DNA from: Desulfocurvus sp. | Lineage (GTDB): Bacteria; Desulfobacterota; Desulfovibrionia; Desulfovibrionales; Desulfovibrionaceae | Reading direction: 5' to 3' | NCBI GenBank assembly: GCA_020692325.1 | Contig: JAIMKR010000002.1 | Location: forward strand, 227,110 to 281,286 | Length of the DNA stretch: 54,177 nucleotides | Shown here: one piece after another, positions 39,315 through 48,440 of the stretch | Layout: each line of letters begins with the position of its first letter | Position numbering within the stretch: position 1 is the first letter of the stretch | Notes under the pieces: model-generated | What the model saw: the letters and a program-made list of their open reading frames with translations, nothing else | Told to the model about the DNA's origin: nothing | Database searches by the model: none | Program-made: the position numbers and the translations under genes

Positions 39315-39373
39315 GACCGTCCCGTCCGCTTGGCCTTCGAAATGCGCGTGGAGGGGGCGGTTGGCCTTTGGAC

Positions 39374-39408
39374 AAAAAAGAGCCGGGCAGGCCCCCCACC
39401 TGCCCGGC
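39374..39408 (-). terminator. Rho-independent terminator on the minus strand
   Basis: GCCGGGCAGG (39399-39408 read on the minus strand, complement of CCTGCCCGGC) pairs perfectly with CCTGCCCGGC around a 7-base loop, then TCTTTTTT follows on the minus strand. On the plus strand no T-run follows, so it does not serve the glycosyltransferase gene. Confidence 0.85.
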
Positions 39409-39462
39409 AGACACGTCGGTCCGACCGACGCGGCCGCCGGAAACGTTGCCGCCCGGCGCACG
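39374..39462 (-). ncRNA. Candidate small RNA gene
   Basis: About 89 bases of minus-strand transcript predicted between a promoter (39469-39498) and an intrinsic terminator (39374-39408). It would hold one internal hairpin, CGTCGGT-CGG-ACCGACG (39430-39414), plus the terminator stem. The minus-strand frames have no start codon with a ribosome site, so it is not an evident small protein. The 5-prime end is estimated as 7 bases after the -10. It is divergent from the sigma-54 activator gene. No known RNA family recognised. Confidence 0.5.
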
Positions 39463-39468
39463 TCCCGA

Positions 39469-39498
39469 TTTAAACAATATCCGTACCAAATATGTCAA
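39469..39498 (-). promoter_or_regulatory. Promoter of the candidate small RNA
   Basis: Minus strand: perfect TTGACA (39498-39493), 18-base spacer, TTTAAA (39474-39469). It is within an AT-rich block (39465-39545) of otherwise GC-rich sequence and is the best sigma-70 -35 I found in the window. Confidence 0.55.
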
Positions 39499-39582
39499 GT
39501 CCCAATATTTCAATATATTGCATGGAATAGGTGAATATTTATCCCGTCGGGACTAGTCAAAAAGCTCGGTCGGGAGTACGTA

Positions 39583-39613
39583 TTTCCCAGAAACTTTCTG
39601 TTTTTCCCGGAAA
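39583..39613 (+). promoter_or_regulatory. Tandem TTTCCCRGAAA operator candidates
   Basis: TTTCCCAGAAA (39583-39593) and TTTCCCGGAAA (39603-39613) are imperfect palindromes with centres 20 bases apart, two helical turns. The second ends 24 bases before the sigma-54 activator ATG. A related TCCCGTCGGGA lies at 39542-39552. The geometry suggests a dimeric regulator binding in pairs, possibly the encoded activator itself. Confidence 0.45.
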
Positions 39614-39637
39614 ACAAGTCAGCGAGGAAATGCGCAG

Positions 39638-41143
39638 ATGCCGACAGTGCTTGTTGTGGACGACGACGATCTGTTCCGTGAGCTCCTGTGCACCTCCGTG
39701 GCCCGGCATGGGCACGAGGCCGCCGGAGCCGCCAGCCTGGAGCAGGCCCGGCGGGAACTCGCCGCCCGCAGTGTGGATGTGGTCTATCTGGACGTGCGCC
39801 TGCCCGACGGCTCCGGCATCGAGGCGTTGGAGGAGTTGCGCGCCGGGCAGGACCCTCCCGAAGTCATCATCATCACCGGACGGGGCGATCCCGATGGCGC
39901 GGAGCTGGCTCTGCGTTGCGGCGCCTGGGATTACATCGAGAAGCCGACCTCGGTGGACCGGATGCTGCTGCCCATGCTGCGCGCCCTGTCCTATCGGGCC
40001 GAGAAGCGCCGCCGCCGCCCCCTCGCCCTGCCCGGTGACTGCGGCATCGTGGGCAAGAGCCCGAGGCTGGCCGCCAGTCTGGCCCAGGCGGGCATGGCCG
40101 CCGCCAGCGGCACGGACGTGTTCATCACCGGCGAGACGGGCACCGGCAAGGAGGTTTTCGCCCGGGCCATCCACGCCGCGGGCGACCGGGCGAACGGTCC
40201 CTTCGTGGTGGTGGACTGCACGACGCTGCCGGGGCCGTTGGCCGAAAGCATGCTTTTTGGCCACGAGCGCGGCTCCTTCACCGGAGCCGATCGCCGGCAG
40301 ATCGGGCTCATCGAGCAGGCCGACGGTGGCTCGCTGTTTCTTGACGAGGTGGGCGAGTTGCCGCTGGGGATGCAAATGAAATTCCTGCGCGTGCTGCAGG
40401 AACGCAGTTACCGGCCCGTGGGCGGCGGCCATGTGCGCAAAAGCGATTTTCGCCTGCTGGCGGCCACCAACCGTGATCTCGCGGCCATGGCCGAGCGGGG
40501 CGAGTTCCGTCACGACCTGCTCTACCGGCTGGGGGCCTTCCGGCTGGAGCTGCCCCCCCTGCGCGAGCGCGAGGGCGACGTGGAGGCCCTGCTCCAATGG
40601 CGGTTGACCGCCATGACCGAACGCACGGGGACTCCGGCGCCGGCGCCCAGCCCGGAGTACCTGGATGTTTTGCGCTCGCACCGTTGGCCGGGCAACGTGC
40701 GCGAGCTGTTGCAAACCGTGGACATGAGTCTTGTGGCGGCCCACGGCGAGCGAGTGCTGCTGCCGCAGCATCTGCCGTTGGAGCTGCGCGTGCATCTGCT
40801 GCGCGGCCAGGTGGGAGCCCATGCCGCGGCCATGGCCAAGGGGAGGGACGAGCGCGCCCCTTCGGCCGTTCCGGCGGGGCCGGGGGCCTTGGAATCGTCC
40901 GGTCCGGCCATGGTGGATGCGCCGGCCATGGCCCAGGGAGCCCCGCTGCCCTGGCGTGAGCATCGTTCCGAAGTTTTGGACAAAGCGGAACGCGAGTATT
41001 TCACGTCGCTCATGGCCGCCGCCAATGGCGACGTTGTCCGGGCGGCGGACATCGCTGGCCTCAAGTCCGCGCGGCTGTATGAGCTGCTCGGCAAGCACGG
41101 GCTTGTGCGCGGGCGGCGGAGTATTCCGGAAAAAGCGGAATGA
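39638..41143 (+). CDS. Sigma-54-dependent response regulator (NtrC family)
   Basis: 501 residues. Receiver 1-115: Asp9/Asp10 pocket, phospho-acceptor Asp52 (VVYLDVRLPDGSG), Thr80, Lys102. AAA+ domain: Walker A GETGTGKE (165-172), sigma-54 contact loop GSFTGA (212-217; usually GAFTGA), Walker B GSLFLDEVGE, arginine fingers in RHDLLYRL. C-terminal Fis-type HTH near 453-490, with DIAGLKSARLYELLGKHG as recognition helix. It activates sigma-54 promoters after phosphorylation. It heads a signalling cluster; the nearest kinase is the large hybrid kinase 0.6 kb downstream. A 50-residue Ala/Pro-rich linker separates AAA+ and HTH. The ATG is at 39638. Confidence 0.95.
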   Translation: MPTVLVVDDDDLFRELLCTSVARHGHEAAGAASLEQARRELAARSVDVVYLDVRLPDGSGIEALEELRAGQDPPEVIIITGRGDPDGAELALRCGAWDYIEKPTSVDRMLLPMLRALSYRAEKRRRRPLALPGDCGIVGKSPRLAASLAQAGMAAASGTDVFITGETGTGKEVFARAIHAAGDRANGPFVVVDCTTLPGPLAESMLFGHERGSFTGADRRQIGLIEQADGGSLFLDEVGELPLGMQMKFLRVLQERSYRPVGGGHVRKSDFRLLAATNRDLAAMAERGEFRHDLLYRLGAFRLELPPLREREGDVEALLQWRLTAMTERTGTPAPAPSPEYLDVLRSHRWPGNVRELLQTVDMSLVAAHGERVLLPQHLPLELRVHLLRGQVGAHAAAMAKGRDERAPSAVPAGPGALESSGPAMVDAPAMAQGAPLPWREHRSEVLDKAEREYFTSLMAAANGDVVRAADIAGLKSARLYELLGKHGLVRGRRSIPEKAE

Positions 41144-41213: not shown

Positions 41214-41240
41214 TGGAACGGAAATTGATGGTTGATCAAC
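41214..41240 (+). promoter_or_regulatory. Weak sigma-54-like element and palindrome
   Basis: TGGAAC-N5-TTGAT (41214-41229) resembles TGGCAC-N5-TTGCT but has A for C in both the -24 and -12 elements. The perfect palindrome GTTGATCAAC (41231-41240) follows. It lies about 45 bases upstream of the CheY-like gene. Weak on sequence alone, and mentioned because the gene upstream encodes a sigma-54 activator. Confidence 0.2.
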
Positions 41241-41285
41241 ACGCGGACTTCGGGGAACGCCGACCGCGAGGGGAGGATTGTGACG

Positions 41286-41651
41286 ATGTTCAAAGTTCTC
41301 ATCGCCGAAGACGATCCCATTTCCCAGCGTTTCGTCTCCGCCATCGTGGAGCGCATGGGCCATTGCCCAGTGGTGAGCCCCAACGGCCGTCACGCCTGGG
41401 AGACCCTGTGCGCGGAAAATCGTTTTGGCCTGCTCATCACCGACATAATGATGCCCGGCATGGACGGCACCACCCTCATCCGCACCCTGCGGGCGGATGA
41501 GCGTTTCCGTGACCTGCCCGTGGTGGTCATGTCCGCCTTCGTCGGCGTCAGCGAGATTTCCGGTCTGCTTGGCCTCGGGGCCACGTGGTTCATGCCCAAG
41601 CCCGTGGAGCGGACCGTTCTGGAGGACTACGTCAAACGGGCCCTGGGCTAG
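41286..41651 (+). CDS. CheY-like single-domain response regulator
   Basis: 121 residues, receiver only: Glu8-Asp9-Asp10 pocket, phospho-acceptor Asp53 in LLITDIMMPGMDG, Ser83 in the switch position and Lys105 (FMPKPVE). No output domain, so it acts by protein contact or as a phosphate shuttle or sink between kinases. It lies between the sigma-54 activator and the hybrid kinase. The ATG has GGAGG upstream (spacing 9); an in-frame GTG two codons earlier has a spacing of three and is less likely. Confidence 0.92.
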   Translation: MFKVLIAEDDPISQRFVSAIVERMGHCPVVSPNGRHAWETLCAENRFGLLITDIMMPGMDGTTLIRTLRADERFRDLPVVVMSAFVGVSEISGLLGLGATWFMPKPVERTVLEDYVKRALG

Positions 41652-41718
41652 CCGCGGCGGAAGTCACGTGCGCGTGGAATCGATCGGTGCTGCTGTCAGG
41701 CGATGTGGACGGCGCGGA

Positions 41719-44700
41719 ATGCGTCGTCTTCGAACGCGCGTCGCGCTCGCGTTCGCGTTCGGCATCGCTGTTTGCTGGTTCGCCTCCGTGGCGTTGGCGA
41801 TTCCGTCGCCCCCCTCCCCCGTCCGCCCGGCGGTCCAGCAGCCCATCCGACAGGATCTGCTGACCGTCGTTGTGCCGACCAGCCTGCCGCCGATCTATGA
41901 AAGGGGACTGGACGGCAGACCCACCGGCTTCGTTGTGGAGCTGTTGCGGCAGGTGGCCGCCCGCGCCGGGTACCACCTGCGTTTCGTCCTTGCTCGCGAT
42001 TCCGGCCAGGCGTACCGGATGCTCGTTCGCGGCGACGCCGATGTGCTCCCCGGCATAGCCGTGAGCGACGCCCGCGCCCAGACCGTCGATTTCACCCGCC
42101 CCATCGAGTCGCAGCCGATCTATGTCTACACCCGCTCCGGCGCGCCCCGGCGCGAGACCCTGGCCGATCTCGCCGGGTTGCGCGTTTCCGTGCTGGAGGG
42201 GAGCCTGGCCGCGTCGATGGCGGCCGCGACGCCCGGCGTGCGCGTACACTCGGTCCAGTCCCTGCCGCAGGCCCTGCTCGATCTCGTGTCCGGCGATGTT
42301 GACGCCATGCTCATGCAGGGACCGCTGGTGGCGCAGGCGGCCCGGGCCTCGGGGCTGGAGGACAGGCTGGCGCGCGGCGCTCGTCCTGTGACCGAGGTGC
42401 GCAGCGCCATCGCCGTGGCGCCGGGCCGGGACGACATCCGACGCCGACTCGACGCCGCGTTGGCCGCCTATCGCGGTTCACCGGATTTCCACGCCCTGTA
42501 CCGCCGCTGGCATCCGGTGTCGCCGTCACCCGGGCTTTCGCCGGCCCTTCTGTGGGGATTCGCCGGGGCGTTGACCGCGCTCGCCGGGTTGCTGTTGCTG
42601 TGGCGTTACGTCTCCCTGCTGCGTGTGAACCGGCGGCTGGTGGCCGTGCTGGCCGCGCGCGATCAGGCGCTGGCCGATCTGCGGCTGAATCAGGAGCGCA
42701 TGGAGGCGCTGCTCCGTCTGACGCGCATGGGCCAAAGCGACACCGCGAGCGTTATCGACTTCGCCCTCAAGGAGGGGGTGCGGCTCACGGGCAGCGGTCT
42801 GGGCTGTCTGTTTTTTCTTGAGGACGGCGCGCCGGTCCCCGGCAGGGCGCACTGGCTGGTCGAGCCCGCGCGGGCGGTGGCCGGGGATGATTCGCCGGAG
42901 GGCGGGACGGCGATCTGGGCGGATTGCGCGCGCACCGGCGCGCCTGTTTTGGACAACGCCGCCTCCGGGGCCGTCCGGCGCATCATGGCCGCGCCATTGC
43001 TGGAGCATGGCCGCGTGATGGCCGTGCTTGGCGTGGCCGACAAGGCCGCCCCATATGACGAGGCCGATCTGCGTCAGCTGCAATTGTTCATGGCCGGACT
43101 GGGGCATGTGCTGGCCGCCCGGCGTGACGCCGAGTCCCTGCGCCGCGCGCGCGACTACGCCGAGGGCCTTGTCGAGGGGGCCAACGCCATGCTCGTGGGG
43201 CTCGATGCCGAAGGCCGCGTCACCGTGTTCAACGCCGCCGCCGAGGCCGCCACCGGCTATCCGCGCGACGAGGTGCTCGGCCGGCCCTGGCACGAGATCC
43301 TGCTGCCGGAGGAACTCGCGGCTCGGGCCGCGGCGCGCTTCACCGACTTCATGGCCGGCCGCGCGTCCCTGCCCCGTCGCCACGAGGGTCCGTTGCGCGT
43401 CAAGAATGGCGGCCTGCGGCGCATAGCCTGGCAGAACAGTCTGCTGCGGCATGATGGCGGCGTTTTGGGAGTCTTGTCCTTCGGCATCGACGTGACCGGC
43501 CATCGCGAGGCCTCGGCCGCGCTGCGCCGTCTGCATCTGGCCATCGAACAGGCCGCGGAGGGCGTGCTCATCGCCGACGGGGCCGGCGTCCTGCTCTACG
43601 CCAATCCGTCCATGCGTCGGCTGGCCGGTCTGCCCGATGACTGGCCGGCGCATCCGCACACCGTGTATGATCTGAATCTCGACCTCGTCGAACACCACAG
43701 CTCCGTCTGCTCCGGCGAGGGGCAGGACGACTCCTGGCGCGGCACCTGCGTCTTCACCCGGTCGGACAGCGCGCCGGCCGAGGTGGAGTTCACGGTCTCC
43801 GCCGTTCGCGACAAGACGGAGGACGCCCTGAGCTTCGTGGCTGTGTGCCGCGATGTGACCGAGCGTCGGCAGCTGGAGCATCAGCTCTGGCAGGCTCAGA
43901 AAATGGACGCCCTGGGCATGCTTGCCGGAGGCATCGCCCACGATTTCAACAACTTGCTCGCGTCCATCATGGGGTTTGCGGAACTCGCGCGCGACGAGTT
44001 CGCCGAGGGGGCGCGCGGGCGTGGTTTTCTGGACCGGGTGCTCGGGGCCAGCCTGCGCGCGCGGGAGCTGGTGCGGCAGATTCTCTCCTTCAGCCGCCGC
44101 AGCGAGCACAAGTTGTGCCTGCTCACCGCCGACGCCGCCGTTGCCGAGGCGCTGGCCCTCCTCGAGGCCTCCCTGGCCAGGAACATCGAGATCGTCTCCG
44201 ACCTGGCCTCCGGGGCCACGGTGTTGGCCGATCCGTCGCAGCTCAATCAGATCGTCATGAACCTGTGCACCAACGCGGCCCAGGCCATGCCAGAGGGCGG
44301 CCGCATCACCGTGCGCACGTCGTCAGGGCCCCTCCCCGCGGAGGTGGGCTCCCGCCACCGGCTGCAGTCCGGCGAATATTTCTCCCTCGGCGTGGAGGAC
44401 CAGGGGCCGGGCGTTCCGCCGGAACTGATGGAGCGCGTTTTTGACCCGTTTTTCACCACCAAGGCCCCGGGGAAGGGAACGGGCCTTGGCCTTGCCGTGG
44501 TGCATGGCATCGCCGCCAGCCTGGGCGGCGTGGTGTGGGCCGAGAACCTGCCCGGCGGTGGCGCGCGGTTCTGGCTGCTGCTCCCCGCGCAACGCGCCGC
44601 CCAGGAATCGGCCTCGGCTCCCCGTGCGGCGGTGGACTCGTGCGGCGGCGAGCGCATTCTGTTGGTGGATGACGAACCCGATCTGCTCGAATTCGGGCGA

Positions 44701-45051
44701 CAGGCCCTGGGGCCGCTGGGCTATCGCCTGGAGGCGGAATCCTTGCCCGAGGCGGCGCTCAAGCGTGTGCTCGAAGCGCCGGGAATATTCGATCTCGTCA
44801 TCACGGACATGCACATGCCCCGGCTTTCGGGGCTGCAACTGGCTGCGGGGGTGCGCTCCGTGCGTCCCGATCTGCCCATCATTCTTATCAGCGGCTCCGG
44901 CGTTGTCGTTCCCCCCGAGCGCCTGGAATCCCTTGGCGCGATTCGGCTGTTGTCCAAGCCGTTTTCCACGGACGAACTGGTCCAGGTCGTGCGCCGGGCC
45001 CTTCATCCGCAACAGGGGGGAGAATATGAACAAGTGCATTCTGGTGGTTGA
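41719..45051 (+). CDS. Hybrid sensor histidine kinase with periplasmic solute-binding domain
   Basis: 1110 residues. Signal/anchor helix 8-28; periplasmic SBP_bac_3-type domain about 45-265 (LTVVVPTSLPPIYERGLDGRPTGFVVELLRQVA, PIYVYTRSG); second membrane helix 278-296; coiled linker; GAF-like domain about 340-470; PAS domains about 485-600 and 605-715; HisKA with phosphorylated His741 (GGIAHDFNN); HATPase with MNLCTNAAQAM, VEDQGPGVP and GTGLGLAVV; C-terminal receiver with Asp1030 (DLVITDMHMP) and Lys1080. It probably senses a small solute, perhaps an amino acid, and relays phosphate internally. I chose the ATG at 41719 for its signal-like start; a GTG at 41668 is possible. It overlaps the next gene by 26 bases. 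Confidence 0.93.
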   Translation: MRRLRTRVALAFAFGIAVCWFASVALAIPSPPSPVRPAVQQPIRQDLLTVVVPTSLPPIYERGLDGRPTGFVVELLRQVAARAGYHLRFVLARDSGQAYRMLVRGDADVLPGIAVSDARAQTVDFTRPIESQPIYVYTRSGAPRRETLADLAGLRVSVLEGSLAASMAAATPGVRVHSVQSLPQALLDLVSGDVDAMLMQGPLVAQAARASGLEDRLARGARPVTEVRSAIAVAPGRDDIRRRLDAALAAYRGSPDFHALYRRWHPVSPSPGLSPALLWGFAGALTALAGLLLLWRYVSLLRVNRRLVAVLAARDQALADLRLNQERMEALLRLTRMGQSDTASVIDFALKEGVRLTGSGLGCLFFLEDGAPVPGRAHWLVEPARAVAGDDSPEGGTAIWADCARTGAPVLDNAASGAVRRIMAAPLLEHGRVMAVLGVADKAAPYDEADLRQLQLFMAGLGHVLAARRDAESLRRARDYAEGLVEGANAMLVGLDAEGRVTVFNAAAEAATGYPRDEVLGRPWHEILLPEELAARAAARFTDFMAGRASLPRRHEGPLRVKNGGLRRIAWQNSLLRHDGGVLGVLSFGIDVTGHREASAALRRLHLAIEQAAEGVLIADGAGVLLYANPSMRRLAGLPDDWPAHPHTVYDLNLDLVEHHSSVCSGEGQDDSWRGTCVFTRSDSAPAEVEFTVSAVRDKTEDALSFVAVCRDVTERRQLEHQLWQAQKMDALGMLAGGIAHDFNNLLASIMGFAELARDEFAEGARGRGFLDRVLGASLRARELVRQILSFSRRSEHKLCLLTADAAVAEALALLEASLARNIEIVSDLASGATVLADPSQLNQIVMNLCTNAAQAMPEGGRITVRTSSGPLPAEVGSRHRLQSGEYFSLGVEDQGPGVPPELMERVFDPFFTTKAPGKGTGLGLAVVHGIAASLGGVVWAENLPGGGARFWLLLPAQRAAQESASAPRAAVDSCGGERILLVDDEPDLLEFGRQALGPLGYRLEAESLPEAALKRVLEAPGIFDLVITDMHMPRLSGLQLAAGVRSVRPDLPIILISGSGVVVPPERLESLGAIRLLSKPFSTDELVQVVRRALHPQQGGEYEQVHSGG

Positions 45052-48149: not shown

Positions 48150-48440
48150 CCGGAGTGGCGTTTCCCGTTTGTGGTGGTGATTGCCCCGCGGCGGGTCCAT
48201 GGCGATCGGGGCCGTGTGTCGTCGTCGCGCTGGGTATGCGCGCTCAGCGCTTGCCCGCCCGTGTGATGCCGGCGCGTGTTGGCGGCGAAGGGACGGAACT
48301 GGCGGTCTGACAGTGGTGGAACGATGCCTCCCCGCTTTTGTTTTAGTCGGGGCCGGGAGAGCTGCCAGTCTTTGGCCGTCCGTGACCTGTACGGACTTCT
48401 GCCGTTGCCGGAAAACATGGGGGCTCCGCCCCGCGCCCCG
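48150..48440. other. Spacer after the signalling cluster
   Basis: About 290 bases with no gene, terminator or RNA that I can support; frames on both strands are Arg/Pro/Ala-rich. It leads into the repeat-rich block at 48441-48704. Confidence 0.5.

Follow-up and report, generated by a model that had tools for sequence, protein, structure and literature searches.

The Qrr RNAs of Vibrio are sigma-54 small RNAs under the NtrC-type regulator LuxO, sometimes encoded beside the regulator, and base-pair through an open seed in an Hfq-dependent manner. RepG of Helicobacter pairs with G-tracts via the low-complexity, C/U-rich loop of its terminator. CrcZ and CrcY of Pseudomonas are longer than the ~88-nt small RNA described here. 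They are sigma-54-dependent sRNAs that are activated by the NtrC-type CbrAB regulator and antagonise Hfq-Crc (PMC8657755). For D. vulgaris, Kazakov 2015 (PMC4641369) names four sigma-54-controlled ncRNAs, the targets of DVU0653, DVU0679, DVU1419 and DVU2359, and two of the four lie downstream of their own response regulator genes. According to Rajeev 2011 (PMC3333781), DVU0679 targets Dv_sRNA2, whose function is given as unknown.

Here we describe a very probable small RNA gene in a 54,177-nt stretch of DNA from Desulfocurvus sp. (contig JAIMKR010000002.1), referred to below as the window. The likeness to the D. vulgaris ncRNAs lies in the host group (Desulfovibrio and relatives), in the combination of an enhancer-binding protein (there three response regulators and one single-component regulator) with a sigma-54-controlled RNA, and in two of the four adjoining the regulator gene, a comparison of arrangement and not of RNA sequence. 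There, two RNAs (those of DVU0653 and DVU0679) come after the regulator, whereas the RNA described here is divergent from its regulator and the downstream operon has a sigma-54-type promoter of its own. CrcZ/CrcY share the NtrC-type regulator and sigma-54 promoter but differ as antagonists of Hfq-Crc, there being no Hfq match here. LuxO is among the activator's solved relatives, whereas the RNA is almost fully paired, unlike Qrr, and RepG has a similarly low-complexity terminator loop, which is G-rich here. Since D. vulgaris has sigma-54-controlled ncRNAs, this kind of RNA is already known. The arrangement is of a known type and the RNA itself is one for which we found no description: titles and abstract openings, excluding supplements and most subscription journals, yielded no paper on it.

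Conservation and fold of the probable small RNA gene

The small RNA gene (39461-39374, minus strand, ~88 nt) is delimited by its conservation within the genus, its structure and covariation. When 59 related genomes were searched at the DNA level, it was found in 12 of the 15 genomes of the genus, its own included, with E-values of 9e-26 or better, while the other matches, present in most other genomes, had E-values of 0.0028 or worse and were taken as chance. Chance is ruled out for the RNA because it is kept in 12 of 15 genomes. Mean pairwise identity of the 12 copies is 0.933. Identity falls to 0.425 (0.196 when shuffled) over the 95 bp ahead of the -24 box, the 95 bp beyond the terminator resemble each other no better than shuffled sequence does (0.203 vs 0.227), and the activator gene next door is 0.53-0.64 identical to the window at third codon positions. 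As its identity far exceeds that of the flanks and of these codon positions, the RNA appears to be held by selection.

A covariance model built from the 12 sequences (R1) recovered the same 12 genomes among 288 genomes of the family and 348 of the order, two overlapping sets, with scores of 97.6-113.1 bits within the genus. These searches used stricter filters and, in each genome, scored 12-15 candidates out of as many as thousands; distant relatives could therefore be missed. Outside the genus, R1 matched nothing in either set apart from two weak hits in L044 and L045 (28.6 and 28.9 bits), which we rejected as chance hairpins on inspection by eye. The L044 match (1501-1592) is a GC-rich double hairpin (GGCGGCCAAAGGGG...CCCCUUUGG) and could, at a guess, be a repetitive element in the family. 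The best R1 score at 18 loci around activator homologues in other genera (L086-L103) was 15.9 bits. The exact 27-base pattern of the terminator occurs in 10 records in contigs of 84,980 species and nowhere in the viral contigs scanned. These records correspond to 10 of the 11 other RNA-bearing genomes of the genus (G009 is missing); three are labelled Humidesulfovibrio and the rest Desulfovibrio sp., Desulfovibrionaceae or broader. Rfam covariance models gave no match at gathering score anywhere in the window, and the only hits on 39315-39637 were RF02956 (13.9 bits, 81.3 needed) and RF01012 (14.2 bits, 75 needed).

The 90-nt minus strand folds into three hairpins (-54.3 kcal/mol): hairpin 1 with a GCAA loop (39458-39435), hairpin 2 (39432-39412) and a terminator hairpin (39408-39382) followed by a U-rich tail (39381-39374). 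The terminator stem has 11 pairs, 10 of them invariant, and is followed by the tail TCTTTTTT. This bears out the original prediction, made from the window alone, of a terminator on this strand with a 10-bp stem and a T tail. The internal hairpin that it placed at 39414-39430 is the core of hairpin 2, and the first hairpin had been overlooked. The stability of the fold has a z-score of -2.76 (2 of 200 shuffles were equally stable), and 1.2 kb contains two terminator-like sites against 0.9 expected. On such single-sequence statistics alone the case for a small RNA would be weak to modest.

Comparison of the 12 genomes adds to this picture, with standard pairs in 99.4% of 348 alignment cells. Both partners have changed at four pairs, every one of them belonging to hairpin 2. 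A count this high arose in 2 of 500 shuffles, a kind of test that overstates the signal on related sequences, and slid controls give 0 or 1. Covariation events are few, because the four pairs stem from three sequences (two pairs from L006, one each from L003 and L010). Invariant pairs make up 10 of 11 in hairpin 3 and 6 of 9 in hairpin 1; these two hairpins are nearly invariant and covariation is therefore uninformative there, and their constancy of sequence suggests a role beyond pairing. The site is very probably a genuine gene for a regulatory RNA of ~88 bases, for which transcription is predicted from the sequence. Conservation, some covariation, the near-invariant terminator stem and the fixed start strongly support the main proposal of the original prediction, namely that a gene for a small RNA stands divergently to that of a sigma-54 activator.

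Proposed mode of action

Built on the observed sequence elements, conservation, co-occurrence and synteny, the explanation that we consider likely is that the divergent activator drives both a sigma-54 small RNA and a second promoter, with the RNA pairing in trans independently of Hfq. The intergenic RNA of ~88 nt would be transcribed leftward from a sigma-54 promoter at 39488-39474. When phosphorylated, the divergent NtrC-type response regulator (39638-41143) would bind palindromic sites at 39576-39612 and activate this promoter. The same regulator would activate a second sigma-54 promoter (41214) for an operon of a response regulator and a sensor kinase, joining signal reception, feedback and RNA in one module. 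mRNAs would then be the trans targets of the RNA, which would base-pair with them through an exposed loop and without Hfq; the best candidate for pairing is the G-rich loop of the terminator. Regarding how the RNA may act, we favour trans pairing without Hfq first, giving it about one half of our confidence, and titration of a protein next, with about one quarter.

No match to the Hfq model PF17209 was found in the RNA's own genome (5 of 14 control genomes have one), which encodes one CsrA. In the predicted fold, unpaired sequence is scarce and the largest hairpin loop is the G-rich terminator loop; so little unpaired sequence is unusual for a base-pairing RNA. Four consensus segments of the RNA, tried against both local leaders of 11 RNA-bearing genomes out of 12, paired on average no better than shuffled sequence (mean z-scores of -0.42 to 1.12), and single leaders reached z-scores of -3.2 and -2.3 with the terminator loop. 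Auto-regulation through pairing with the local leaders is thus unsupported, as the average over 11 genomes is no better than shuffled.

The same control could serve an RNA that titrates a protein (CsrA or another), like CrcZ or CsrB, instead of pairing with mRNAs. Such titration shares the control half of the explanation above and is not exclusive with that half. The very stable stems, the nearly invariant sequence of hairpins 1 and 3, the scarcity of free sequence, a genome with CsrA and no Hfq match, and a GGA at the loop of hairpin 2 in 11 of the 12 genomes are all in keeping with it. However, there is a single loop GGA per RNA, and none in L012, whereas CsrA-sequestering RNAs carry several GGA loops. 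A CsrA sponge in particular is weakened by this, with one loop GGA in 11 of 12 copies where several would be expected.

Promoter and activator sites

The promoter element proposed for the RNA is of the sigma-54 -24/-12 type (TGGTACG-GATA-TTGT, 39488-39474, minus strand) and is present in 12 of 12 genomes. The pattern TGGNAYG-NNTN-TTG[A/T]T, followed after exactly 11 bases by GTGCGC, is found in all 12, and the reversed control has no matches. TGGNAYG-N4-TTG[A/T] occurs at two sites in the window against 0.21 expected (3 of 100 shuffles have two or more), and these are just the small RNA promoter and the promoter at 41214. Transcription from sigma-54 promoters starts 12 bases past the -12 position. 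By this rule we take the start of the small RNA to be 39462-39461, which is at the border of the conserved block. The genome encodes RpoN. The -12 element reads TTGA or TTGT and never the consensus TTGC at both the small RNA promoter (12 genomes) and the operon promoter (11 genomes); the Desulfovibrio sigma-54 consensus is tGGcacg / tTGCt (PMC4641369). TGGCACG-N4-TTGC is carried by 6 of 18 other activator loci of the genus (L068-L085), which indicates that the usual -12 form is in use at other activator loci.

The original prediction had instead assigned the RNA to a leftward TTGACA and TTTAAA with an 18-base spacer. The motifs are there (TTGACA at 39498-39493, TTTAAA at 39474-39469, minus strand), and the sigma-54-type element overlaps their spacer and -10. 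The pair is the only match in the window with at most two mismatches (0.30 expected), and such a match turns up in 27 of 100 shuffles, a figure that gives no weight to TTGACA being exact. A standard sigma-70 scan missed it because TTTAAA lacks the required A and T. The same small RNA might be made from this sigma-70 promoter independently of the activator, and the exact TTGACA and TTTAAA in the window, with TTGACT in two close relatives, would fit. We consider this improbable, since 9 of the 12 genomes are without TTGAC at that place (by eye), the 18-base spacer comes with a poor -10, and the sigma-54 element is the same in position and pattern in all 12. TTGACA itself is intact in one of the 12 (the two TTGACT copies were read by eye) and, not being conserved, was rejected as the promoter; the TTGACA-18-TTTAAA element (39498-39469, minus strand) is present and probably not a working promoter. 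Transcription of the small RNA is more plausibly dependent on sigma-54. The observation behind the original prediction is confirmed, all its elements lying on the minus strand where it put them. Its interpretation is partly supported: the hairpins and the terminator are kept across the 12 genomes and the TTGACA promoter is not. Because the sigma-54 element is kept in all 12 genomes at a fixed distance, it is probably through the neighbouring activator that the RNA is controlled, a point that the original prediction did not make.

Upstream of the small RNA promoter is a palindromic pattern, TTCYGG-N5-NYRGAA. The putative upstream activator site TTCCGG-GAAAA-ACAGAA (39612-39596, minus strand) lies 108 bp upstream of the -24 box. 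Eleven of the 12 RNA-bearing genomes carry an extended pattern of the site here, none of the three others does, and two further matches lie elsewhere, against one match of the reversed control in 15 genomes; the twelfth genome (L003) reads TTCCAG there (by eye). A second, weaker activator-like site, TTCTGG-GAAAT-ACGTAC (39592-39576, minus strand), is located 20 bp from the first; read by eye, all 12 genomes retain its TTCYG and CRTA. A further candidate, TTCCGG-N5-GCGGAA (41124-41140, plus strand), precedes the downstream operon and overlaps the activator's last codons. It is present in 11 of the 11 genomes readable there, one of them with CTCCGG (by eye). A looser palindrome occurs three times in the window against 0.33 expected (0 of 100 shuffles have three), and the third copy, at 48397, has no sigma-54 pattern nearby. 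We infer from these patterns that the activator binds at the palindromic sites. In a regulon search, the palindrome pattern, which misses the window's own two sites, was rarer than its reversed control in all 15 genomes, and no regulon is therefore claimed.

The activator, its neighbourhood and related loci

The divergent gene (39638-41143, plus strand) encodes a response regulator and sigma-54 activator (Pfam PF00072 and PF00158) with a REC domain, an AAA+ domain with GSFTGA and a Fis-like C-terminus. The GSFTGA, the phospho-acceptor aspartate and the Fis-like tail were read by eye, and no DNA-binding domain was matched by Pfam even at an E-value of 1. Its solved relatives are NtrC-family regulators, including LuxO and FleQ. 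A close orthologue is found in the same 12 genomes as the RNA (its own genome being the query), with identities, own genome aside, of 67-80% in the matched stretch and 64-76% in the synteny comparison. G006, G013 and G014, the genomes of the genus without the small RNA, are also without a close orthologue: their top-scoring matches share 47-49% identity with the activator, and the highest identity among the matches listed is 52%. One of the three is 99% complete and two are 82-83% complete. They may be a separate branch, in which case the co-occurrence of RNA and activator may count as one event.

The activator adjoins the small RNA in 12 of 12 stretches. It is followed by the second sigma-54-type promoter (TGGAACG-GAAA-TTGA, 41214-41228, plus strand), present in 11 of the 11 genomes readable there, and then by a response regulator and a hybrid sensor kinase in all 11 genomes where the contig reaches. 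The single-domain response regulator (41286-41651, plus strand; PF00072 on 41232-41651) likely starts at the ATG at 41286, judged by eye. The hybrid sensor histidine kinase (41644-45051, plus strand, start approximate) has an SBP_bac_3 sensor, PAS and GAF by Pfam; it is 38-57% identical between genomes and is in two pieces in five of them, a contig end cutting one.

On the other side of the RNA, a convergent glycosyltransferase gene lies beside the terminator in 10 of the 12 genomes. The terminator thus sits between convergent units and could simply stop leftward transcription, the other motifs being there by chance. This is very unlikely, as hairpins 1 and 2 and the promoter-to-RNA distance are also conserved, and the stem is unchanged in L150 and L151, where the glycosyltransferase was not found. 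That the transcript, ~88 nt with a GTG at its start, encodes a small protein is scarcely credible, since ATG is absent from the window's copy (hairpin 2 contains one in some relatives), L007, L011 and L012 differ from the others by one-base gaps, and sequence changes follow the pairing.

In two other genera, activators ~50% identical to the one described here are followed by a sigma-54-type promoter and, past it, a different small RNA (L091, 3135-3245; L087, 3145-3258; L092, minus strand, promoter at 1158). This RNA comprises a hairpin with an ACCUCC(C) loop, a CU-rich stretch and a terminator; the letters of the hairpin stem differ between genera and still pair. It matches in 19 of 288 genomes of the family, two of them weakly, adjoins the activator in L091, L087 and L092, and is ~5 kb apart from it in G288. 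Its fold has z-scores of -3.61 and -2.55, and no Rfam match was found in the three loci L158, L161 and L087. By its sequence it looks like an RNA that targets ribosome-binding sites. The presence of a second, unrelated RNA, here downstream of related regulators from other genera, hints that sigma-54-driven RNAs may have been gained by regulators of this type on repeated occasions. In L095 and L101, a sigma-54-type promoter downstream of the activator homologue is followed by an apparent gene for a Tat-exported molybdopterin oxidoreductase (by eye).

The small RNA adds a family absent from Rfam, within a complete control module of sensor, response regulator, sites, two promoters and RNA, in a group whose list of sigma-54-controlled RNAs is short (four in D. 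vulgaris). More tentatively, the locus may represent a genus-restricted class of RNA with two matched sigma-54 promoters, both having the unusual -12 element TTGA/TTGT, and a closed three-hairpin RNA whose action is protein-mediated or loop-loop. If so, sulfate reducers in which no Hfq is recognisable would have a new RNA class that is tied to a phosphorelay of its own and acts without an open seed, through nearly invariant stems, a GNRA loop and a G-rich terminator loop.
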